This document shows positions 1 through 35,901 of a stretch of 35,933 nt of DNA, in pieces. Position 1 is the stretch's first letter. Each line of letters opens with the position of its first letter. Both the position numbers and the translations under genes were made by a program. The notes under the pieces were generated by a model that searched no databases, had not been told where the DNA came from, and saw only the letters and a program-made list of their open reading frames with translations. Source of the DNA: Mycoplasmatota bacterium (GTDB lineage Bacteria > Bacillota_I > Bacilli_A > Izemoplasmatales > Izemoplasmataceae); NCBI GenBank assembly GCA_030600605.1, contig JAUVLT010000013.1, forward strand, positions 1 through 35,933, given 5' to 3'.

Positions 1-288
1 AAATCCTTTTTCAATGATCTCTCTTAACCCTAAATTCATTATATTATTAGTTATTAAGCGACCCATCAAAAATTCCATAGAAAAATAATGGACTTCTTTT
101 AATTTATTTTTACTAAGATATGTTTTAGTTTTAAGCCAGTCTTTCGATATAACTTCACTTACCATTTCACCTAAGACGTTATATTTTTGTCTAATACTAG
201 CTTCATCTATTGTAACGATATATCTTTGTTTTACTCTATTTTTAAATTCATTAATAAAATCGTGTTCGTTCTTAAAATAATTGTTCAT
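1..288 (-). CDS. glgP: Glycogen phosphorylase, N-terminal part (runs off the left edge)
   Basis: Reading leftward from an ATG at 288 gives 96 open codons that run off the window. Residues near 74-84 read HYFSMEFLMGR, followed by a TNN-MNLG stretch, the N-terminal signature of glycogen/starch phosphorylase. The enzyme is cytosolic and uses pyridoxal phosphate to release glucose-1-phosphate from glycogen; its PLP lysine lies in the missing C-terminal part. An AGAGGAG ribosome binding site sits 9 bases before the ATG. It is the last visible gene of the glg cluster, 81 bases after the glgD-glgA fusion. That gap holds an extended -10 promoter and a cre-like site, so glgP may also be transcribed separately. 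Identity is secure although only about an eighth of the protein is visible. Confidence 0.93.
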   Translation of the reverse strand, partial: MNNYFKNEHDFINEFKNRVKQRYIVTIDEASIRQKYNVLGEMVSEVISKDWLKTKTYLSKNKLKEVHYFSMEFLMGRLITNNIMNLGLREIIEKGF

Positions 289-311
289 AAATCTCACTCC
301 TCTTAGTACTC

Positions 312-369: not shown

Positions 370-2784
370 TTAATTTTTAATAATTACATTATAAAATTCA
401 ATATACTTTTGAGTTGATCTAGCTAAACTATTATCTGATCTCATGGCTCGATGAATTAACTTATTCCAGTCTTCTTTGTTTTCACAAAATAGATTATAAG
501 CATTTTGAATTGTATTTTTCATTTCATTTGCATCATAATTATTGAAAGTAAATCCATTCCCTTTTTTAGTTATTGGATCATATTTAAAAACAGTATCATT
601 TAAGCCACCTGTTCTTCTAACTAATGGCAAAGTTCCATAACGAAGAGCAATCATTTGACCTAGCCCACAAGGTTCAAATCTTGAAGGCATTAAAAAGATA
701 TCTGCTCCAGAATAGATATAATTAGGATTAGTTGCGTCATACCCAATATTAAGTTTAATTTGATCTTTGTGTCTTTCTTGAAGTTTTTCTAATTCTTGAA
801 TATATTTTTTATCACCAGCACCAAGTAAAATAAACTGAATATTTTTATTTTCTAGTAATTCATCAAATGAATTCAAAATTAAATCAAATCCTTTTTGTTC
901 AACGATCCTCGTAACCATTCCAATTACAAACATATCTTTATCTACTTTTAAACTCATTTTCTTTTGAAGATATAACTTATTTTCTAATTTTAATTCAATA
1001 TTATCACTTGAATAATTAGTTTTAATAGCTTTATCAGTAAGTGGATTAAATGAACTTGAAATTCCATTTAAAATGCCATAAAATTCTCTTTCTCTATTAA
1101 GTAAAGAATATGTCAGGTTTTTACCATAATATTCATACTTAAGTTCATCTTTATAAGTTGGAGACACTGTTGATAATTTAGAAGCTCTATTTATCCCGAT
1201 TTCTAAGAAATTAATATTATCATCCTTAAGAACAAAATCAGTAATTCCTAATTTCTTAATAATATCATTTTTCCCAATTCCTTGATAATCAATATTATGA
1301 ATTGTTAATAGTGTTTTAAGACCTTTGTGTGGCGAATTATCAATTAAGATTGGAATCAAAGAAGTATGCCAATCATTACAATGCACTATATCAAAGGATT
1401 CAAAATCATCAAGTAAATCTACTACTGCCTTGTTAAAGAAAGCAAAACGATCAGGATCATTTTTATACCCATAAACATTTTCTGTTTCAAAAAAATCAAA
1501 ACTATCAATAAAGTAATATTTCACTTTTCGATATTGATAACGATATATTCTAACTTTGTATTTTTCCTTATCATATATTATTGTTCGTGAAAATTGATAT
1601 TTTAAACTTTCAAAAAACGTTTCTCTTATTTTTTTATAAAGAGGAAGTATAACTGTCGAATCAATCCCTTGTTTTGTAAGGTTTCTAGATAATGAACCAA
1701 TCACATCAGCTAATCCCCCAGTTTTAATAAAAGGATATGACTCACTAGCTACTAATAATACTTTCAAGTTCTCAAAACTTGAAACTATTTGTTCTTTTTG
1801 TGTTACATATGGGTTATTTAAAACACCTTCAATATGGGTATTTTTTTTAACAATAGTTTGTTTATCTAAAATAACGTAATTAAGTATTGAACCTTCTTCA
1901 ATAACACAATTACTCATAATAAAACTATTCTTAATTGTAGCTCCTTTTTTTATAATAACATCACGAGCAATAACACTGTTTATAACTGTTCCATCAACAA
2001 TACTTCCACTTGATACCATCGAATTTTCAATAATTGCATTTTTGAGATACTTTGTTGGTGGAGCTGTCTTTTCCTTTGATATAATGGGTCTATCAGGAGG
2101 AAATATTTTCATACCAATATCAAATTTAAGCATATCTAAATTCGACTTAAGATAATTAAATGTGTCGGTAATTGTTCTTGTATAATTTTGGTGTTTATAA
2201 ATATGGATTTTTAGGTTTGGTGCTCTTTCAACCAAATCTAACATTGTTCGGTATTCTTGAGTATCATATACTAAAATATACTCTATTAATAACTTCTTAG
2301 AAATTAAGAAAGTTTTTAAACGAATATTTTTATACATTATTTCTGTAATATCAGCTTTATTTTTCAGATGTTCTTCTAAACAATCTTGGAAATCAATATT
2401 CCAAACAATATTAGCTGATGTAATTATGGCATAATCCTGACTAGAACGTTTAAAAAATTCGATATGTTCATACATTCTTTGAAATGTAATCATTTCATCA
2501 GGAGAGATGTATAAATTCTTAGGAGGCAAAATGAATAAGCCATCTCTTCTCCTATCTAGATCCCATTTTTTACCACTACCAATATGATCTTGAAGAGAAC
2601 GATAATTTCCATAAGGAAAAATCGCAACATTTGTAATTTGTGAATTTCTCATATTTGAAAGTGTAAAATCAATTAAGCGATATTTACCAGCAAATGGTAG
2701 TGCTCCAGGCATTCTATGTAGTGTGAGTTGTTCTAGGTTATCTTTAAATGTAGCATCCACAATTGCAAATATATTACTATTCAT
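370..2784 (-). CDS. glgD-glgA: Fused GlgD-type regulatory subunit and glycogen synthase (GlgA)
   Basis: One 804-residue frame joins two proteins that are normally separate. Residues 1 to about 330 are a GlgD-like ADP-glucose pyrophosphorylase subunit with nucleotidyltransferase fold (AGKYRLIDFTLSNM) and C-terminal left-handed beta-helix repeats. The catalytic GGxGxRL loop of GlgC is absent, as in the GlgD family. From about residue 340 (LKVLLVASESYPFIKTGGLA) it is a complete GT5 glycogen synthase with the KTGGL ADP-glucose loop, HCNDWHTS, and the late PSRFEPCGLGQ motif. A GTG at 2793 and an ATG at 2790 also open the frame, but the AGGTG site best serves the ATG at 2784. The start overlaps glgC. 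A perfect 9-bp hairpin lies at the domain junction (1762-1784). Both activities act on ADP-glucose metabolism, so the fusion is functionally coherent. Confidence 0.92.
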   Translation of the reverse strand: MNSNIFAIVDATFKDNLEQLTLHRMPGALPFAGKYRLIDFTLSNMRNSQITNVAIFPYGNYRSLQDHIGSGKKWDLDRRRDGLFILPPKNLYISPDEMITFQRMYEHIEFFKRSSQDYAIITSANIVWNIDFQDCLEEHLKNKADITEIMYKNIRLKTFLISKKLLIEYILVYDTQEYRTMLDLVERAPNLKIHIYKHQNYTRTITDTFNYLKSNLDMLKFDIGMKIFPPDRPIISKEKTAPPTKYLKNAIIENSMVSSGSIVDGTVINSVIARDVIIKKGATIKNSFIMSNCVIEEGSILNYVILDKQTIVKKNTHIEGVLNNPYVTQKEQIVSSFENLKVLLVASESYPFIKTGGLADVIGSLSRNLTKQGIDSTVILPLYKKIRETFFESLKYQFSRTIIYDKEKYKVRIYRYQYRKVKYYFIDSFDFFETENVYGYKNDPDRFAFFNKAVVDLLDDFESFDIVHCNDWHTSLIPILIDNSPHKGLKTLLTIHNIDYQGIGKNDIIKKLGITDFVLKDDNINFLEIGINRASKLSTVSPTYKDELKYEYYGKNLTYSLLNREREFYGILNGISSSFNPLTDKAIKTNYSSDNIELKLENKLYLQKKMSLKVDKDMFVIGMVTRIVEQKGFDLILNSFDELLENKNIQFILLGAGDKKYIQELEKLQERHKDQIKLNIGYDATNPNYIYSGADIFLMPSRFEPCGLGQMIALRYGTLPLVRRTGGLNDTVFKYDPITKKGNGFTFNNYDANEMKNTIQNAYNLFCENKEDWNKLIHRAMRSDNSLARSTQKYIEFYNVIIKN
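1762..1784 (-). repeat. Perfect inverted repeat at the GlgD/GlgA fusion junction
   Basis: TTTCAAGTT (1762-1770) is the exact reverse complement of AACTTGAAA (1776-1784), with a 5-base loop. The repeat lies within coding sequence exactly where the GlgD part ends and GlgA begins. A TTG codon at 1767-1765 corresponds to the usual GlgA start. It could be a relic of an intergenic hairpin, or chance. Confidence 0.5.
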
Positions 2785-3907
2785 GAACATCACCTAGTTT
2801 CCATAAAAACTCATTATCGACAACTGTAACTTCAGTAAATTTTAAAATCGTATTTTCAAGAATAACAGAACCCTCAATAATAATCGCCTTCTCAATATGG
2901 CAATTAGCTCCAATTTTTACGTTTGGATGAATAATTGAATCAATAATAACTGAGTTATCTTTAATTATGACACCACTACTTAAAATAGAATGAATAATTT
3001 GGCCGTAAATTAAACAACCATCACTAATCATTGAATTATAAATTTTATCACTTTTTATTATATGATGAGGTGGTAGATTTACTGATTTTGTAAATATTGG
3101 AAAATCTTTATAGTCTTGAATTTTTAATAGATGGGGTTTATCAAGTAAATCCATATTAGCTTCATACAAACTTCTTACAGTTCCAACATCACGGAAATAA
3201 CCAGAAAACTTATACCCGTAAACGTTTAGTTTATGCTTTAAACCTAATGGGATAATATCTTGTCCAAAGTCAAAATTATCTTCTATGCTTTCACCTAATA
3301 GTGCTTTTAAAACCTTTTTATTAAAAACATAAATTCCCATTGAAGCAAGATTGGATTTAGGATTATCAGGTTTTTCTTCAAAACTGATAATCTTGCTTTG
3401 ATCATCCATTTCTAAAATTCCATATCTTGATGGATTATCATTAACTTTAAAAGTAGCAATTGTAATATCTGAATTACTTTGAATATGATGATTAATCATC
3501 GTATTATAGTTCATTTTATAAATATGGTCTCCTGGAAGGATTAAAACGTAATCAGGATTATAAAGATCAATAAATCTAAAATGCTGATTTATAGCATGAG
3601 CTGTACCTTTTTGCCATAGTTCACCATCCATTGATGTATAAGGAGTTAGTAAAGAAATTCCTCCTTGATTAACATCTAAATCCCATGTGCTTCCATGTTC
3701 AACATAACTAAGTAATTCATATGGTTCATATTGAGTAATAAGTCCGATAGTAGATATTCCTGAGTTAGATAGATTACTCAAAACAAAATCAATCAAACGA
3801 TATTTACCACCAAAATTAACCGCCGGTTTTGCGGTTGATTTTGTAATATTTTCAAGTCTTGATCCTCTTCCTCCAACTAATACCATAGCTACTACAGGTT
3901 TTTTCAT
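2777..3907 (-). CDS. glgC: Glucose-1-phosphate adenylyltransferase (ADP-glucose pyrophosphorylase)
   Basis: The 376-residue protein makes ADP-glucose from ATP and glucose-1-phosphate, the committed step of bacterial glycogen synthesis. The catalytic nucleotide loop GGRGSRL is at residues 12-18, followed by KPAVNFGGKYRLIDF, the sugar-phosphate region SFEEKPDNPKS, and a C-terminal left-handed beta-helix from about residue 285. Length is normal for the family. Unlike the neighbouring GlgD part, it keeps the catalytic loop, so the two would form a GlgC-GlgD pair as known in Bacillus. The ATG has an AGGTG ribosome binding site. The TAG stop lies inside the next gene, and the start immediately follows the glgB stop, which suggests translational coupling. 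Confidence 0.96.
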   Translation of the reverse strand: MKKPVVAMVLVGGRGSRLENITKSTAKPAVNFGGKYRLIDFVLSNLSNSGISTIGLITQYEPYELLSYVEHGSTWDLDVNQGGISLLTPYTSMDGELWQKGTAHAINQHFRFIDLYNPDYVLILPGDHIYKMNYNTMINHHIQSNSDITIATFKVNDNPSRYGILEMDDQSKIISFEEKPDNPKSNLASMGIYVFNKKVLKALLGESIEDNFDFGQDIIPLGLKHKLNVYGYKFSGYFRDVGTVRSLYEANMDLLDKPHLLKIQDYKDFPIFTKSVNLPPHHIIKSDKIYNSMISDGCLIYGQIIHSILSSGVIIKDNSVIIDSIIHPNVKIGANCHIEKAIIIEGSVILENTILKFTEVTVVDNEFLWKLGDVHE

Positions 3908-5770
3908 TTACTCACCTAGTTTCAATAATGTAACTGATAAAGGACTTAACACTATATTCAATGATTGAGTATAGCCGTTACATTCTATTTCTTCACTAAA
4001 GAGGTCTCCTCCATTGTATAATCCAGATCCTCCATAACAATTATTATCACTATTAATGATTTCATTATATTTTCCTTTTTTTGGAACACCTATTCTAAAA
4101 TTATAATGAACCATTGGTGTTAAGTTTAAGATAACGATTATAAAATCATTATGATTTTTACCATATCTTAAATAAGAAAATATTGAATAATCACTATTGT
4201 TAGAATCAATCCACTTAAATCCTTCACCTTTATGGTCTTGTTCATAAAGAGCTTTATTTGCTTTTACAACAGCGTTTAAATCTCTAACAAATCTTAAAGC
4301 ACCATTATGAATTGGATATTCCAGTAAATTCCAATCAAGTTCAGAGTGATCTTTCCATTCATGCATTTGGGCAAATTCAGATCCCATAAATAATAATGTT
4401 TTCCCAGGATGAGTGAAAAATAATCCCATCAAAGCCCTGAAATTAGCGAATTTTTGCCAATAATCTCCTGGCATTTTATCGACTAATGAATGTTTACCAT
4501 GAACAACTTCATCATGTGATAAAGGTAAAACATAGTTTTCTGTAAAGGCATATGTTAATCCAAAAGTAATACTATTATGATGATATTTACGGTAAATCGG
4601 GTCTTTTTCGAAATATTCTAAGGTATCATTCATCCAGCCCATATTCCATTTATAATTGAATCCTAATCCGCCATTATCAACTGGATGAGTTACTTTCGGA
4701 TAAGCCGTTGAATCTTCAGCAATTAATAAAGCATTATTAAATTCTTTAAATATTTGAGTGCTCAAACTTCTCAAGAAGCTAACAGCTCCATCGTTGTGGC
4801 CTTTGGAACTATCTCCAAGAAAATAGATAATATTGGATACAGCGTCAATTCTGAAGCCATCAACGTGAAAATACTTCATCCAATATAAAGCATTGGAAAC
4901 TAAGAAGCTTTGAACTTCACCTTTTCCAAGATCTAAGTTAGCAGTTCCCCAAACAACATTTTCTCTTTTCCATTCTTCGTCATATTCATATAATGGTTCT
5001 CCATCAAACATATAAAGACCATGATCATCACGACAAATATGACCTGGAACCCAGTCTAGTATTACTCCAATATTATGTTTGTGACATTGATTAACAAAAT
5101 ACATTAAGTCTTTTGGTACTCCATATCTCGAAGTTGCACTATAATATCCTGTGCCTTGATATCCCCATGATTGATCTAATGGGTGTTCAACTATAGGCAT
5201 TAATTCAACATGTGTAAACCCATTCTCAAGTAAATAAGGGATTAACAAATCAACCATTTCATTATATTTATGAAATGTTCCATCCGGCTTAGTCATCCAA
5301 GTGCTTAAATGGACTTCATACATTGACATTTGTGACTCATAAGGATTATTAATATTTCTTTCATTCATGTATGATTCATCGTTCCAAATATAACCCTCTA
5401 GATTATATATTTTAGATAATGTTTCGGGTCTTTCACTACTAAAGAAAGCATAAGGATCGCTCTTATAAAGACTTCTTCCATCAAACGTTTTTATTTCGTA
5501 CTTATATTTTGCCCATTCAAACGCTGATTCAATGAAGATACTCCAAATACCTGATTCATCTACTCTTTCTAAGTTATGAACCCAAGCTTGATAATTATTA
5601 AATTCTCCAAGCACATTTACTTCTTTTGCATGAGGTGCCCAAACTGTGAAACGAGTTCCTAGTAAAACTTCTTTTGAATCATAAATTAAGTGCGCACCAA
5701 AAATACGGTAAGCATCAAATAACTTTCCTTGATTGAAAAAATAGAGATCCTCTTTACTAATCACTTTCAT
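3908..5770 (-). CDS. glgB: 1,4-alpha-glucan branching enzyme
   Basis: This 620-residue GH13 enzyme introduces alpha-1,6 branches into glycogen. An N-terminal CBM48 domain (FTVWAPHAKEVNVLGEFN, about residues 41-58) precedes the (beta/alpha)8 barrel. The catalytic nucleophile is D309 in DGFRIDAV, the acid/base is E352 in LLIAEDS, and the transition-state stabiliser lies in SHDEVVHG (residues 418-425). A C-terminal all-beta domain closes the protein. Length fits the short Firmicutes form. It is the first gene of the glg set; its ATG lies inside the end of recX with a 14-base overlap, so the glycogen genes follow recX without a gap. Confidence 0.96.
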   Translation of the reverse strand: MKVISKEDLYFFNQGKLFDAYRIFGAHLIYDSKEVLLGTRFTVWAPHAKEVNVLGEFNNYQAWVHNLERVDESGIWSIFIESAFEWAKYKYEIKTFDGRSLYKSDPYAFFSSERPETLSKIYNLEGYIWNDESYMNERNINNPYESQMSMYEVHLSTWMTKPDGTFHKYNEMVDLLIPYLLENGFTHVELMPIVEHPLDQSWGYQGTGYYSATSRYGVPKDLMYFVNQCHKHNIGVILDWVPGHICRDDHGLYMFDGEPLYEYDEEWKRENVVWGTANLDLGKGEVQSFLVSNALYWMKYFHVDGFRIDAVSNIIYFLGDSSKGHNDGAVSFLRSLSTQIFKEFNNALLIAEDSTAYPKVTHPVDNGGLGFNYKWNMGWMNDTLEYFEKDPIYRKYHHNSITFGLTYAFTENYVLPLSHDEVVHGKHSLVDKMPGDYWQKFANFRALMGLFFTHPGKTLLFMGSEFAQMHEWKDHSELDWNLLEYPIHNGALRFVRDLNAVVKANKALYEQDHKGEGFKWIDSNNSDYSIFSYLRYGKNHNDFIIVILNLTPMVHYNFRIGVPKKGKYNEIINSDNNCYGGSGLYNGGDLFSEEIECNGYTQSLNIVLSPLSVTLLKLGE

Positions 5771-20271: not shown

Positions 20272-20293
20272 AAACACTTCCTAAGAAGTGTTT
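20272..20293 (-). terminator. Rho-independent terminator of leuS
   Basis: AAACACTTC (20272-20280) pairs with GAAGTGTTT (20285-20293), loop CTAA, followed on the minus strand by a run of T. The stem touches the leuS stop codon. Confidence 0.88.
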
Positions 20294-22692
20294 CACATAA
20301 CAATATTTACTAATTTATTAGGTACAACAATTATTTTTATGATTTTTTTACCTTCTAGTAAAGCTTTTATTTTATTAGTTGCCTTAGCAAGAGTAATTAT
20401 TTCCTCTTTTGGTGTATCTAAAGGCAGTATTATTTTATCTCTAACCTTACCGTTTATACTGACCACCATCTCAATTGTTGTTTCTACTAATTTAGCTTCA
20501 TCATGGTGTGGCCATGATGCATTTACCATGTCATCACTATGACCAAGTCTTTCCCATAGCTCTTCACAAATGTGCGGAGCAAATGGATAGATAATTTTAA
20601 GAACTATCTCAAAATCCTTCGTAAAAACATGAGTTGCTTTGGAAAGTTCATTAACCAAACTCATAAGTTTAGCAATCGCTGTATTAAATTTTACATTTTC
20701 AATATCATCATTTACCATCTTAATTGTTTTATGAAGAATTGTTTGGTAATCATCATTTTTTATTTCACTTACTTTGTCTTCAAGTCTAGCAAGTTTATCT
20801 AAAAATCTTTTTGAGCCTTTTACACCATTTTCATTCCAAGGTGTAGATTGTTCATAATCTCCAATGAACAATATGTAAAGACGAAGAGTATCTGCTCCAT
20901 ATTTTTCAATAATATCATTAGGGTTTATAATGTTCCCTTTCGATTTACTCATTTTGTCACCGTCAGGTCCTAAAATAAGTCCTTGAGCAGTTCTTTTTTT
21001 ATAAGGTTCAACTGTTGGAACAATACCAATATCATAAAGAAATTGATGCCAAAATCTTGAATAGATAATGTGTCTAGTAACATGTTCCATTCCACCATTA
21101 TACCAATCTACGGGCATCCAGTATTTAAGTTTATCAAAATCAGCTAGTTTATCGCTATTATTAGGATCTGTATATCTAAGGAAATACCAACTAGACCCGG
21201 CCCACTGTGGCATTGTATCTGTTTCTCTTTTTGCTTTTGTTCCACATTTCGGACAAGTAACATTAATAAATTCTTTTATTGTAGCTAAAGGACTCTCTCC
21301 TTCATCACTTGGTTCGAATATTTTAACTTTAGGAAGAACAACTGGTAAATCTTCCTCTGGAACATGTACCATCCCACATTTAGGACAATGAATGATTGGA
21401 ATAGGTTCTCCCCAATATCTTTGACGATTAAATGCCCAATCTTTCATTTTATAGTTTATTGCTTTTGTTCCTATTTTTTTCTCTTCTAAAAATTCAATAA
21501 TCTTAGAAATTGCTTCTGGAACTCTCATCCCATTAATAATTCCACTATTTACTAGTATACCCTCTTGAGAATCAGTATAAGCTTCTTTACTAATATCTCC
21601 TCCTGAGATTACCTCGATTATATCCAAATTGTATTTTGTAGCAAATTCATAATCTCTTGTATCGTGTCCCGGTACCGCCATTATAGCTCCTGTTCCATAG
21701 CCTATCATAACGTAGTCTGCTACAAAAATAGGAATCTCTTTATTATTTACTGGGTTAATTGCTACTAGCCCATTAATTCTAACACCGGTTTTATCTTTAG
21801 CTAATTCTACTCTTTCAAATTCAGTTTTAAGCTTAGCTTTTTCTTTATATTTATATATTTCTTCTAAATTACTAATTTTAGCTTTCTGTCTTTCAATCAT
21901 TTCATGTTCAGGAGCAATTACCATAAATGTGGCTCCAAATAAAGTATCGGGTCTTGTTGTAAACACCATCATCGATTCATCCGTACCTTTTACTTTAAAA
22001 TCAACATGAGCACCAGTTGATTTGCCTATCCAGTTTTCTTGTTCGGTTCTAATACGTGGTAATGTATCTAGTTCTTTTAATCCATCAAGCAACCTTTCTG
22101 CATGATCTGTAATCTTTAAAAACCAAACATCTTTTTCTTTTTGGACTACAACTGTGTTGCAACGATCACACTTTCCACCTTGACTTTCTTCATTCGAAAG
22201 AACAACCTTACAACTAGGGCAGAAATTAATATACGTTTTATCTCGATAAGCGAGTCCTTTTTTAAATAATTGAACAAATATCCACTGGGTCCATTTATAA
22301 TAACCTTCATCAGTAGTATCAACTACTCTATCAAAATCAAAACTAAAACCACCTTGTTTTAACTGTTTAGTATAAACTTTAATGTTATTATCAGTTAATA
22401 CTCGAGGATGAATTCCTGTTTCAATAGCGTAATTTTCTGTAGGAAGACCAAAAGCATCAAATCCAATCGGAAATAATACGTTATATCCTTCCATTCTTCT
22501 TTTGCGAGCAACTATCTCAAGGCTAGAGTACGCTCTCATATGCCCAACATGCATTCCTTTTCCTGATGGATAAGGAAACTCTACTAAAGAATAGTATTTC
22601 GGTTTATCACTAAAATCAACGGCTTTAAAACGTTTATTTTCATACCAATGATCTTGCCATTTCTTTTCTATTTCTTTGTGGTTATAATTCAT
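20293..22692 (-). CDS. leuS: Leucyl-tRNA synthetase
   Basis: This 799-residue class I synthetase attaches leucine to tRNA-Leu in the cytosol. The HIGH-type motif is in PSGKGMHVGHMRAY (near residue 45) and the KMSKS loop in GDKMSKSKGN. The inserted CP1 editing domain (TTRPDTLFGATFMVIAPEHE) and zinc-binding pairs FCPSCK and GGKCDRC are present. The ATG at 22692 is 8 bases after AAAGGAG; a GTG at 22701 is less likely. It ends with TGA. A T-box leader with specifier UUA precedes it, so expression should rise when tRNA-Leu is uncharged. The gene is flanked by its own promoter and terminator. Confidence 0.97.
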   Translation of the reverse strand: MNYNHKEIEKKWQDHWYENKRFKAVDFSDKPKYYSLVEFPYPSGKGMHVGHMRAYSSLEIVARKRRMEGYNVLFPIGFDAFGLPTENYAIETGIHPRVLTDNNIKVYTKQLKQGGFSFDFDRVVDTTDEGYYKWTQWIFVQLFKKGLAYRDKTYINFCPSCKVVLSNEESQGGKCDRCNTVVVQKEKDVWFLKITDHAERLLDGLKELDTLPRIRTEQENWIGKSTGAHVDFKVKGTDESMMVFTTRPDTLFGATFMVIAPEHEMIERQKAKISNLEEIYKYKEKAKLKTEFERVELAKDKTGVRINGLVAINPVNNKEIPIFVADYVMIGYGTGAIMAVPGHDTRDYEFATKYNLDIIEVISGGDISKEAYTDSQEGILVNSGIINGMRVPEAISKIIEFLEEKKIGTKAINYKMKDWAFNRQRYWGEPIPIIHCPKCGMVHVPEEDLPVVLPKVKIFEPSDEGESPLATIKEFINVTCPKCGTKAKRETDTMPQWAGSSWYFLRYTDPNNSDKLADFDKLKYWMPVDWYNGGMEHVTRHIIYSRFWHQFLYDIGIVPTVEPYKKRTAQGLILGPDGDKMSKSKGNIINPNDIIEKYGADTLRLYILFIGDYEQSTPWNENGVKGSKRFLDKLARLEDKVSEIKNDDYQTILHKTIKMVNDDIENVKFNTAIAKLMSLVNELSKATHVFTKDFEIVLKIIYPFAPHICEELWERLGHSDDMVNASWPHHDEAKLVETTIEMVVSINGKVRDKIILPLDTPKEEIITLAKATNKIKALLEGKKIIKIIVVPNKLVNIVM

Positions 22693-22720
22693 TAGTTTCA
22701 CTCCTTTAAAATTAAAAAAT

Positions 22721-22943
22721 CGCCCTTAAAAATAAGGACGAATATATCTCCGCGGTACCACCTTGGTTCTAGTTTTATAAAACTAGCTCTCAATTCCTTT
22801 AACGCAGGAATACGACTCAAGCTTACATGCTGCACCTAAGTAACTCCCTAGACTAATTCATAATCGTTTATTCCTAATTTTCAGCACCATTAGGTCTCTT
22901 CAAATAAACCAATTATTACTACTTCTAGTTCTTCGTTTTATCT
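22721..22943 (-). promoter_or_regulatory. T-box riboswitch leader of leuS, specifier UUA
   Basis: The minus strand carries the T-box core AAGGTGGTACCGCGG (22751-22765). Its UGGU pairs with an ACCA tRNA end. Downstream is a terminator, CGTCCTTA and TAAGGGCG with a T run (22721-22740). Upstream, stem I is recognisable: base pairing of ACTAG with CTAGT-type arms, an AGTA motif, the distal loop CCTAATGGTGCTGA, and the specifier loop GAATTAGTC. The codon in specifier position is UUA (22854-22856), a leucine codon. This fits control of leuS by uncharged tRNA-Leu(UAA). Confidence 0.93.
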
Positions 22944-24839: not shown

Positions 24840-26120
24840 CTATCTTAATAAGTATTTTAATTCTTCATAAATAATTTTAACTACAAGCATATCTGCACTC
24901 CCACCAGGAGATATATCTTTCTCAATATACTCATTTGTCAAATTAGCCACTAAAGCAATGTTATTTGTATATCCACCAATTTTAACTAATTCTCCCATTG
25001 TCTGTTTTATATTTTTTAAAGTTTGAAGATTAGTCCTATGAATAATAGTCGTATCATCTAAAAGACTCATAATATGAATTAGATACTCTAAATGAATGTA
25101 TCCAGCAGGTCTATCCTTATAGCTAGGTATATCAAAGACTATTTCTAGTCCATTCAGTGCTTCTCCTCTTATTCCCTTTAAATTGTAATCAAGATACACT
25201 AAATCACCATGTGTTTTATTTGCTTTATTAGAAACATTTAAATAATAATCTCCAATTATTTGTTTGCTAATCTTTTTTATTTCTTCTTTTATATATGCTT
25301 GTCCTAAGTTATTGCGAATAGCTTTTGACAGAACAGGTAAAAAGATTCCAAGAATAAATATTAATCCTTTTTGAGTGTTAACATTATTTGTCACAGCAAA
25401 CATTGCTTTTTCAGCTCTTATCCCAATCTGTATTAATAATTTAGGATCATTTATATCTTTTAGACCATATAATATATATTCTTTTAAATATGGCTTAATC
25501 GCAAAAGTACTATTAATAAAAGTTTGAAAGTCCATATCTTTATGTACTCCACTATCATGACTAGATACAAGTCCAAATTTAGGATATAAATCAAGTTCAT
25601 AATAAATACACTTAATTGTTTTATTCAGTATGTGTTCTACTAAATAATCTTCTGTAATCTCATCAATTTTGGTAAATAATTCTTCTTGAGTATGAGTTTG
25701 GTTACGAACACATATATGTGAATAGTTATCACAAATTAAACATTTTCTCATTTCACATTCTAATGTACTTCTTGTAATTGACATTTCATTATAAACATCA
25801 ATATCAACTAATTTACCTAGTACATTTGCTTCTTCAATCAAGATTGCTTTTTCCTTAACGATATTTCCTTCTTCTTCCACAACATAATAAACATAATTTC
25901 CATCCAATGATTCAACATTTTGCTTTATAGTAATTTTTTTCTTTAATTCCTTTTGAATCAATAAATCATATAGATTACAAATAAACTTTAATCTTTTAGG
26001 ATTTTTTTCAGCACCTGGAACATTAGATTTTAAGATGATAATTGTTTTATATCTATATTCTTTCATTAACTCATTAATATGAGTAGCTCTTTTCTCTCTT
26101 GCTTCTAGTATTAAAGACAC
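24840..26120 (-). CDS. citXG: Fused CitX-CitG: prosthetic-group synthesis and transfer for citrate/citramalate lyase
   Basis: This 426-residue protein joins two activities. Residues 1 to about 170 are CitX, which attaches the phosphoribosyl-dephospho-CoA group to the acyl carrier subunit (REKRATHINELMKEY; later LDIDVYN-like and RKCLIC region). The rest is CitG, which makes the triphosphoribosyl-dephospho-CoA precursor from dephospho-CoA and ATP (SSHDSGVHKDMDFQTFINS, GIRGEALNG, SPGGSADMLVVK). Fused CitXG is known in some bacteria. It is the last gene of the operon, starting with GTG and overlapping the citC stop by one base. In this operon the target is probably the CitD-like subunit of citramalate lyase. 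Confidence 0.9.
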   Translation of the reverse strand: MSLILEAREKRATHINELMKEYRYKTIIILKSNVPGAEKNPKRLKFICNLYDLLIQKELKKKITIKQNVESLDGNYVYYVVEEEGNIVKEKAILIEEANVLGKLVDIDVYNEMSITRSTLECEMRKCLICDNYSHICVRNQTHTQEELFTKIDEITEDYLVEHILNKTIKCIYYELDLYPKFGLVSSHDSGVHKDMDFQTFINSTFAIKPYLKEYILYGLKDINDPKLLIQIGIRAEKAMFAVTNNVNTQKGLIFILGIFLPVLSKAIRNNLGQAYIKEEIKKISKQIIGDYYLNVSNKANKTHGDLVYLDYNLKGIRGEALNGLEIVFDIPSYKDRPAGYIHLEYLIHIMSLLDDTTIIHRTNLQTLKNIKQTMGELVKIGGYTNNIALVANLTNEYIEKDISPGGSADMLVVKIIYEELKYLLR

Positions 26121-29653: not shown

Positions 29654-30892
29654 CTATCTTTTTATTAAAGCTAATGTTCGATTCATAACATTATTTACAA
29701 TCATAATACCTTCATCAGTTCCCATTCCTGGTTTTGCCAAACATTGCTTGGCTTCACAAGCAATAGCAATATTTGTAGTTACTTCGGCACTAATATTAGT
29801 TTCGTTACATGTTCCCCCACTATAAGCCCCAATATTTCTATTTTTACAATATAATAGTGCTTCAATAATATTGTTAACTCCTCCTAAATCAGGAGTTTTT
29901 ATTTGAAGCATATGTCCAGCATTATTATCCGCAAAAAATTTAACATCATCAAATGTATTACACCATTCATCTGCGACAATTTCAACTGTACAATTGTTTT
30001 CATTAATCATTTTAGTAATCTCTTTTAAAGCAATCATAGTGTCTTCTCTATTACCTGCGTCAACTGGGCCTTCAACTCGTAATGTAAAAGGATGTGCAGC
30101 TGCTTCTAATTCTTTTAAATACTCAAAGATTTGTTTGATATCGTTATCAAATATGATTCCAATAGTACCGTAAACATCAATATGGAATATTGGTGCATAG
30201 CTTTTATCAAAACTTAAATATTGGACTCTCCATCTAAGCCATGATATATATTCTTTTAATTTTTCTCCATGAAAGCCAAGTTTTGTTTCAATGTTGTTAA
30301 TTAAAGCATGAGGCATAACCTCTACTCTTTTAATAATCATTTTATCAACATTTGAATAACGATTATCTCCGCACTGTGCAAATAATGGAATACGATGATA
30401 TTCTTGATTATCAATGTTATATTCTTTTCTTACCACTTCAGCCATTGTCATTTTATTAGCTTTTGCAGTAGCATCTAATAAAGCTTGAGTTATTCCATAA
30501 CGTAAAGCTGTATGAATTAACTTCCCATTAATCTTTAATGAATCTATCTCAATAGCCAATTCTTTAAAAGTAGAGATATCTCTACCAATTAAAAGTGGTT
30601 TAACATATTTCTGAATTTCAGCAATTCCGTCTTTACTTGAGAATAAAGGATCTCTCCCACCAGCTCCACTATATTGAACAGCAGCTGCATCTCCCAAAGC
30701 AACTTGACCATCTTCTAAAATTATCATAATAGAAACAGCCTCTCCTTTTTGTCTAATATAAGAAAACTTAGGAGTAACAGGTTTTCCAGTATATCTTAAT
30801 CCATCTTGTTTCGCACCTGCCTTTATTGCTTTTTGATCATCAAAATAAAAACCAGTAAGTGATTCAGAACATATAATATCTTTAATCTTCAT
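29654..30892 (-). CDS. mal: Methylaspartate ammonia-lyase
   Basis: The 412-residue enolase-superfamily enzyme converts (2S,3S)-3-methylaspartate to mesaconate and ammonia, the second step of the methylaspartate pathway. Length equals the clostridial enzyme (413). Visible features are VQYSGAGGRDPLFSS near residue 73, HIDVYGTIG (Mg ligand), VEGPVDAG, VADEWCN, and LQIKTPDLGGVNN with the general-base Lys. It lies 11 bases after glmE and directly before citD. Substrate comes from the glutamate mutase encoded just upstream. Confidence 0.96.
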   Translation of the reverse strand: MKIKDIICSESLTGFYFDDQKAIKAGAKQDGLRYTGKPVTPKFSYIRQKGEAVSIMIILEDGQVALGDAAAVQYSGAGGRDPLFSSKDGIAEIQKYVKPLLIGRDISTFKELAIEIDSLKINGKLIHTALRYGITQALLDATAKANKMTMAEVVRKEYNIDNQEYHRIPLFAQCGDNRYSNVDKMIIKRVEVMPHALINNIETKLGFHGEKLKEYISWLRWRVQYLSFDKSYAPIFHIDVYGTIGIIFDNDIKQIFEYLKELEAAAHPFTLRVEGPVDAGNREDTMIALKEITKMINENNCTVEIVADEWCNTFDDVKFFADNNAGHMLQIKTPDLGGVNNIIEALLYCKNRNIGAYSGGTCNETNISAEVTTNIAIACEAKQCLAKPGMGTDEGIMIVNNVMNRTLALIKR

Positions 30893-34734: not shown

Positions 34735-35901
34735 GTGAAAGAGATTAGAAGAAAAGGATATAAATATAGAATATATCCAAATGAAGCTCAAACACTTTTA
34801 ATCAACATGACTTTCGGATGTGCTCGTAAGGTTCATAATCTATATCTAAATGAAAAAAAAGTAATATATGAGTTATATAAAGATTATCCTAAGTTACTTA
34901 GATCTCATACTTGTCGAACACCAGCTGTCCATAAAGTATCATATCAATATTTAAAAGAGGTTGATTCACAAGCATTAGCAAGTGAGTGTCAAATTGTAAA
35001 TGACAGCTTTAGAAACTTCTTCAAAGGTACTCATGGATATCCTAAATTTAAAACTAAAGATGATAGTAAACAATCTTATACATCACATACAACCAATAAT
35101 AATATCCGAATTGAAGGAAGCAAAATAAGAATTCCTAAGGTAGGGTTAGTTAAAATGAAGAAACATCGAGAATTACCTGATGGGGCTATTATTAAAGCTG
35201 TCACAGTATCAAGAAGTGCATCAAGCAAAGATTATGTATCTCTTTGAATAGAATATGAAGAAGAGATAGTTAATATAGATAAGAAGATCCTTAACATAAT
35301 AGGTTTAGATTTTTCACTTAATAACTTATACATAGATCATTTAGGTAGGAAAGCCAACTATCCTAAATATCTTAAAAGTTCATTAGGTAAACTAGCCTTA
35401 GAACAAAGAAGACTTTCACATAAAAAGAAGGGCAGCAACAATCGTAAGAAACAAAGAATTAAAGTAGCTAGAGCATATGAGAAGATATCAAATCAAAAGA
35501 ATAACTTTCATCATAAGTTATCAAGGAAGTTAGTTAATGATTATGATGTAATTTGTGTAGAATCATTAGACTTAAAAGAAATGATGAAGAATAAACGTTT
35601 CAGTCTTAAGATTAATGATAATAGCTACAGCAAGCTACTTAACTACATATCATATAAAACAAAAGATGAGGGAAAATCCCTCATCAAAGTTAATAAATAT
35701 TATGCATCAAGTAAAATATGTAGTGTCTGTGGTAATAAGAAAGAGAAACTAGCTCTTTCTGAGAGAACATATAAATGTGAATGTGGAAACATAATAGACA
35801 GAGATATTAATGCAGCTTCTAATATCGCCTATGAAGGATTACGTATTCACTATACAAACCTTATAAAACAAGAGGCTGGGACAGCCTTGTTAGCTTGGTA
35901 A
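34735..35901 (+). pseudogene. tnpB: TnpB RNA-guided nuclease gene of an IS200/IS605-type element, interrupted by one in-frame TGA
   Basis: A GTG at 34735 with GAAAGCAGG upstream opens a TnpB frame that continues in the same phase to TAA at 35899-35901. The only break is a TGA at 35245-35247, codon 171. All three RuvC acidic residues are kept: D in IIGLDFSLNN, E in VICVESLDLKE, and D in NIIDRDINAASN. The zinc-finger cysteines CSVCG and CECG are also kept. The N-terminus KEIRRKGYKYRIYPNEAQ is typical. Because UGA is a stop in this genome, the product would be truncated to 170 residues; TTA (Leu) to TGA is the simplest origin. No TnpA transposase lies nearby. TnpB uses the transcript of its right end as guide RNA. 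The premature stop suggests recent decay. Confidence 0.9.

Follow-up and report, generated by a model that had tools for sequence, protein, structure and literature searches.

GlgC/GlgD heterotetramers in which GlgD is inactive are established in Firmicutes (PMC9093745). Descriptions of GlgD present it as a subunit without activity of its own whose modulation of GlgC varies between species, and its role is still unsettled (PMC9093745). The locus analysed here resembles the glgBCDAP operons of Firmicutes (Geobacillus, Lactobacillus, Clostridioides) in its enzymes, its gene order, its operon arrangement and the presence of an inactive GlgD beside an active GlgC; its nearest sequence relatives, Cytobacillus among them, share with it a short form of GlgD. 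It differs from them in that GlgD and GlgA form one chain, whereas 78 of the named loci listed, out of 80, do not have the two joined.

Other fusions are known in alpha-glucan synthesis. The TreS–Mak/Pep2 fusion of the GlgE pathway likewise brings two consecutive steps into one chain or complex (PMC11046441), although the enzymes are different ones and both are active, whereas here one partner, GlgD, is a pseudo-enzyme, and any effect it has could be exerted by way of GlgC. TreS and Mak form a complex in which channelling appears to be ruled out (PMC11046441). Fusions within glycogen operons, as here, include glgA–glgB in Criblamydiaceae/Waddliaceae and glgB–malQ in Neisseria suica (PMC11046441), but with different partners; moreover, the chlamydial glgA–glgB fusion accompanies a defective GlgC–GlgA pathway, whereas the present locus keeps the GlgA catalytic residues and glgC. 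No earlier report of a GlgD–GlgA fusion was found in the open literature searched; a subscription paper or a domain-architecture database may already include this architecture without remarking on it.

Results

A single frame encodes GlgD and GlgA within a glycogen operon

The operon lies at one end of the window, by which we mean the whole 35,933-nucleotide stretch of DNA analysed, and comprises the following features.

1–297, minus strand: glgP, glycogen phosphorylase, first 99 amino acids, cut at the window end; named from its sequence
370–2784, minus strand: glgDA, fused GlgD–GlgA, 804 codons and a stop, assigned from the reading frame, NCBIfam matches and start-site context
2777–3907, minus strand: glgC, catalytic ADP-glucose pyrophosphorylase, 376 amino acids, overlapping glgDA by 8 nt
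3908–5770, minus strand: glgB, branching enzyme, 620 amino acids; assigned on its sequence and its place in the operon
2790–2795, minus strand: AGGTGA within the end of glgC, probably the site at which ribosomes bind for glgDA
ATG 2790 and GTG 2793, minus strand: alternative, longer starts of glgDA

The gene order is glgB–glgC–glgDA–glgP, and glgP is complete in relatives (loci L168, L171 and L165). The glgDA frame runs without interruption from GTG 2793 or ATG 2784 down to the stop codon at 370–372. ATG 2784, which gives 804 residues, is the best start, because AGGTGA lies 5 nt upstream and the 8-nt overlap with the end of glgC is kept in most relatives. A glgC-type frame adjoins all 61 fused loci measured, with a median spacing to glgDA of −8 nt, and a Shine–Dalgarno-like motif is present at the true glgDA start in 54 of them.

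The initial annotation had proposed that one frame of 804 residues covers both proteins, and the stop-free frame together with matches to both the GlgD and the GlgA family bears this out. An AlphaFold2 model of GlgDA, built on an alignment of 54 fused proteins, had a mean pLDDT of 90.9 and a pTM of 0.80. Foldseek matched it first to bacterial glycogen synthases (1rzu, 2qzs) and then to ADP-glucose pyrophosphorylases (5l6v, 5w5t). Among the 50 matches listed, no label pointed to a chain that combines the two enzymes.

Elsewhere in the window, a single protein combines CitX and CitG (24840–26120, minus strand) within a citrate/citramalate-lyase-like cluster that adjoins a methylaspartate ammonia-lyase (29654–30892), a combination that suggests glutamate fermentation by the methylaspartate route. 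A T-box leader (Rfam RF00230, 132 bits; 22731–22942, minus strand) lies directly upstream of a leucyl-tRNA synthetase-like gene (20293–22701), and an IS605-type TnpB gene is in pieces (34735–35901, plus strand), its N-terminal HTH and C-terminal TNB being in separate ORFs.

The two halves of the fused protein

The fused protein divides into two domains joined by a short linker.

1825–2784, minus strand: GlgD domain, residues 1–320, a degenerate nucleotidyltransferase and a left-handed beta-helix
1768–1824, minus strand: interdomain linker of ∼20 residues (about 321–339), with lower model confidence and more variable
370–1767, minus strand: GlgA domain, residues 340–804, complete, stop codon included, catalytic residues kept

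GlgDA scores 278.5 bits against TIGR02092 (GlgD), above the curated cut-off of 236.6, and in a tree of GlgD halves the domain nests in GlgD and not in GlgC. Three features that both GlgC proteins of the same genome keep are missing from it, namely the G-rich loop, the EKP segment and the GDH aspartate. Near residue 148 there is a deletion of ∼35 residues, and the corresponding stretch of GlgC holds the EKP motif, whose lysine, from what is known of E. coli GlgC, we take to bind Glc-1-P. A profile search with PF00483 found two glgC genes, glgDA and one other nucleotidyltransferase (contig C57) in the genome, with no separate glgD; GlgD is otherwise a separate polypeptide, and here it shares a frame with GlgA.

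The deletion is common to all aligned fused proteins and to the nearest unfused GlgD proteins (genomes G128 and G136, and Cytobacillus), and the other GlgD and GlgC proteins compared are intact in this stretch. Three loci (L062, L063 and L130), from genus g83 of family f14 and from Cytobacillus, encode a short GlgD without the Glc-1-P-binding segment that is not fused. Because the short form is also found unfused in these lineages, the alignments place the loss of the Glc-1-P-binding segment before the fusion.

The GlgA half matches TIGR02095 (GlgA) with 486.9 bits against a cut-off of 328.45, over residues 344–802 of the 807-residue reading, in keeping with the earlier proposal of a complete GlgA beginning at about residue 340. 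PF08323 gives 209 bits on this half, and Pfam agrees with NCBIfam on both halves. Aligned to E. coli GlgA (3d1j), the domain keeps the lysine of KxGGL, the arginine and lysine of R-x4-K and the glutamate of EPCG, residues that we take to be catalytic or ADP-glucose-binding from their roles in E. coli GlgA, and all of these are invariant over 54 fused proteins. On its sequence, the GlgA half is a glycogen synthase (GT5; TIGR02095/PF08323 with PF00534), predicted to be ADP-glucose-dependent.

Within the genus, dN/dS was about 0.05–0.2 in both halves, a rough estimate given that synonymous sites are near saturation; by this measure, both halves of GlgDA are under purifying selection. These comparisons bear on whether the GlgD domain, having lost a further ∼35 residues of its nucleotidyltransferase fold and being covalently tied to GlgA, has stopped pairing with GlgC and acts instead on the attached synthase, for example as a regulatory or dimerizing module. 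We regard this as quite unlikely: the deletion is shared with the unfused GlgD of G128, G136 and Cytobacillus, and therefore does not go with the fusion as such, the fused loci measured retain glgC immediately upstream, in most cases with an overlap, and the GlgD half evolves at least as slowly as the GlgA half.

The junction

The weakest stretch of the structural model near the junction is residues 331–340, with a block mean pLDDT of 71. Two further features at this position had drawn attention in the initial annotation, which described a perfect hairpin at the junction and a TTG retained at the ancestral GlgA start.

1757–1789, no strand assigned: imperfect inverted repeat across the junction, arms 1757–1770 and 1776–1789, 93% complementary
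1765–1767, minus strand: TTG, codon for Leu340, where the ancestral GlgA began; not conserved as a start and without a Shine–Dalgarno site

Both are present. The repeat has a z-score of −2.7 for a 66-nt stretch, and a 13-nt inverted repeat also occurs inside glgC, so that the junction repeat is ordinary for an AT-rich operon. When the junctions of relatives were compared by eye, the same arms were seen in the nearest relative only (G005, locus L004), and for this reason we think that the repeat is probably incidental.

It had also been suggested that the hairpin and the TTG keep open a route to separate GlgA, with initiation at TTG 1767, aided by the hairpin, yielding free GlgA beside the fusion. 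Both elements do sit exactly at the junction in the window, and two members of f10 have ATG at that codon. Nevertheless, neither element is conserved. An ATG, GTG or TTG occupies the ancestral GlgA start codon in 13 of the 56 fused genes whose junctions were examined, a Shine–Dalgarno-like motif precedes none of these 13, the hairpin arms were seen by eye in the window and its nearest relative only, and an AT-rich genome uses TTG as an ordinary codon for leucine. Judged from these junctions, separate GlgA is unlikely to be made from glgDA, and we consider the production of both forms very improbable.

The fusion is widespread in Izemoplasmatales

In the order Izemoplasmatales, 77 of 90 genomes match glgDA at E ≤ 1e-110, and the frame crosses the junction in 76 of these. 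A GlgD–GlgA architecture, which the initial annotation had proposed to seek in related genomes, is thus found throughout these 76 and also in f10 and f14, two additional families of the same class. The sole exception is G032, whose copy appears to have decayed. Numerous stops and frameshifts interrupt the gene at this locus (L044, contig C8) and reach into at least a portion of the glgC ahead of it, which reflects either decay in genus g5, other members of which have lost or kept the locus, or poor sequence.

One stop lies within the match in 6 of the 76. Of these six (G042, G048, G053, G057, G516 and G507), the first four were read, and none of their stops is at the junction: two are at the C-terminal end and two outside the tblastn match. 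No stop or frameshift separates the domains in the intact relatives read, and no member of the order has two separate genes at this locus; either finding would have spoken against the fusion. Two genomes of the same order, G011 and G016, have lost the fused locus and kept a stand-alone glgA.

Beyond Izemoplasmatales, three of the eight genomes in f10's order carry the fusion, as do six of the eight in f14's order, and a wider sample of 395 genomes of the class revealed no further fused family at E ≤ 1e-150. The two fused entries among the 80 named loci listed are L073 (titled Mollicutes), which nests within the window's own family, and L075 (titled Candidatus Izemoplasmatales), whose junction is nearly identical to that of G048. 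A possible GlgC–GlgA fusion in G104 (an 894-residue frame) was rejected; the genes are separate.

The genome of the window is a draft of 115 contigs, and an assembly or base-calling error might in principle join two genes. The same frame, however, recurs in dozens of independent genomes, and several of these assemblies have no more than two contigs (G014, G028, G034, G040, G044, G071, G082 and G109). We therefore rejected an artefact, the chance of which we consider negligible.

The fusion arose once

Separate trees of the GlgA halves (96 rows) and of the GlgD halves (84 rows) each included 41 fused proteins, and a third tree was built from 45 joined GlgD and GlgA pairs. All 41 fused proteins fall on one side of one branch, with SH-aLRT support of 96 (GlgA) and 99 (GlgD). 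In the joined tree the fused clade has support of 100/100, and f14, f10 and then the order's three families split off one after another. Because the fused proteins form a single clade in all three trees, we conclude from the phylogeny that the fusion arose once, long ago.

The nearest unfused GlgD proteins in the GlgD tree are those of Cytobacillus oceanisediminis and of genus g83 of f14. In g83, glgD abuts glgA in-frame (...EWI-TAA-ATG... in G128; EWE in G136), and in several other families of the class the two genes likewise share a frame with one stop between them. Given this in-frame glgD–TAA–ATG–glgA arrangement in the nearest unfused relatives, a single stop-codon change would suffice for fusion. 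An ancestor with a Bacillus-type short GlgD would then have lost the glgD stop codon before an in-frame glgA. We rejected g83 as a reversal of the fusion: the trees group it with Cytobacillus, outside the fused clade. As it stands apart from the fused proteins of f14, its operon was presumably acquired from elsewhere.

The ease of this event raises the question of whether the fusion has any consequence. Loss of the stop might have been fixed by drift, leaving two domains that work independently, held together by a flexible linker, and bringing no new function; one codon change is all that is needed, the linker is the most variable stretch and the least confidently modelled one near the junction, and the expression of glgD and glgA, already operon neighbours, was coupled beforehand. 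Yet three families of one order, and two families besides, have kept the fusion with no clear reversal, and since unfused g83 lies with Cytobacillus outside the fused clade, it is not a reversal on this tree. We take a neutral fusion to be a serious possibility, albeit a minority one.

A second set of ADP-glucose genes

A stand-alone glgA2–glgC2 pair is present in the same genome (locus L033, 4084–6757; contig C69 of G000) and is conserved in the order, in many relatives; in f14 the gene order is glgC2–glgA2. GlgA2 falls outside the fused clade in the GlgA tree. The fusion is therefore not the only ADP-glucose route in these genomes, and the two sets may be regulated separately or serve different products.

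Discussion

On the genomic evidence, glgDA is a real and old fusion of known enzymes with a single origin, and it is the fused architecture for which the literature searched held no earlier report. We favour the view that GlgD is a docking and regulatory module that probably carries GlgA onto GlgC in one assembly. Docking of GlgDA onto GlgC is the simplest reading because GlgC/GlgD heterotetramers with an inactive GlgD are established in Firmicutes. GlgA would be the working enzyme of the fused chain, while GlgC, made from the overlapping upstream gene by translational coupling, would supply the only active pyrophosphorylase site of the operon. The GlgD domain would replace the separate GlgD subunit of the GlgC/GlgD heterotetramer, so that every assembly would hold GlgA and GlgC at a fixed ratio. 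This fixed stoichiometry, together with the co-location of ADP-glucose production and use, would be the likely gain. We infer the GlgDA–GlgC complex, its stoichiometry and its benefit; the adjacent and mostly overlapping glgC of the fused loci measured would support the complex indirectly.

It is plausible that the fusion places the supply and use of ADP-glucose in one assembly, as the initial annotation had envisaged. Substrate channelling, which it had also raised, may occur, although this reading does not depend on it. Enzymes that are joined need not channel, since the TreS–Mak complex appears to be free of it (PMC11046441). A stronger version, in which GlgC and GlgDA form one particle as a permanent synthase–pyrophosphorylase metabolon, the pseudo-enzyme being a covalent scaffold that senses effectors for both steps while ADP-glucose is passed to the tethered GlgA, seems to us rather unlikely.

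A fusion that arose one time and was kept over several families indicates that having GlgD together with GlgA is tolerated at the least and probably of use; it also suggests that the two steps of glycogen synthesis are linked by GlgD. The fusion makes the role of GlgD testable: comparing the fused with a split protein would be a simple test of whether joining ADP-glucose supply and use matters, and GlgDA may be a ready-made part for glycogen engineering.
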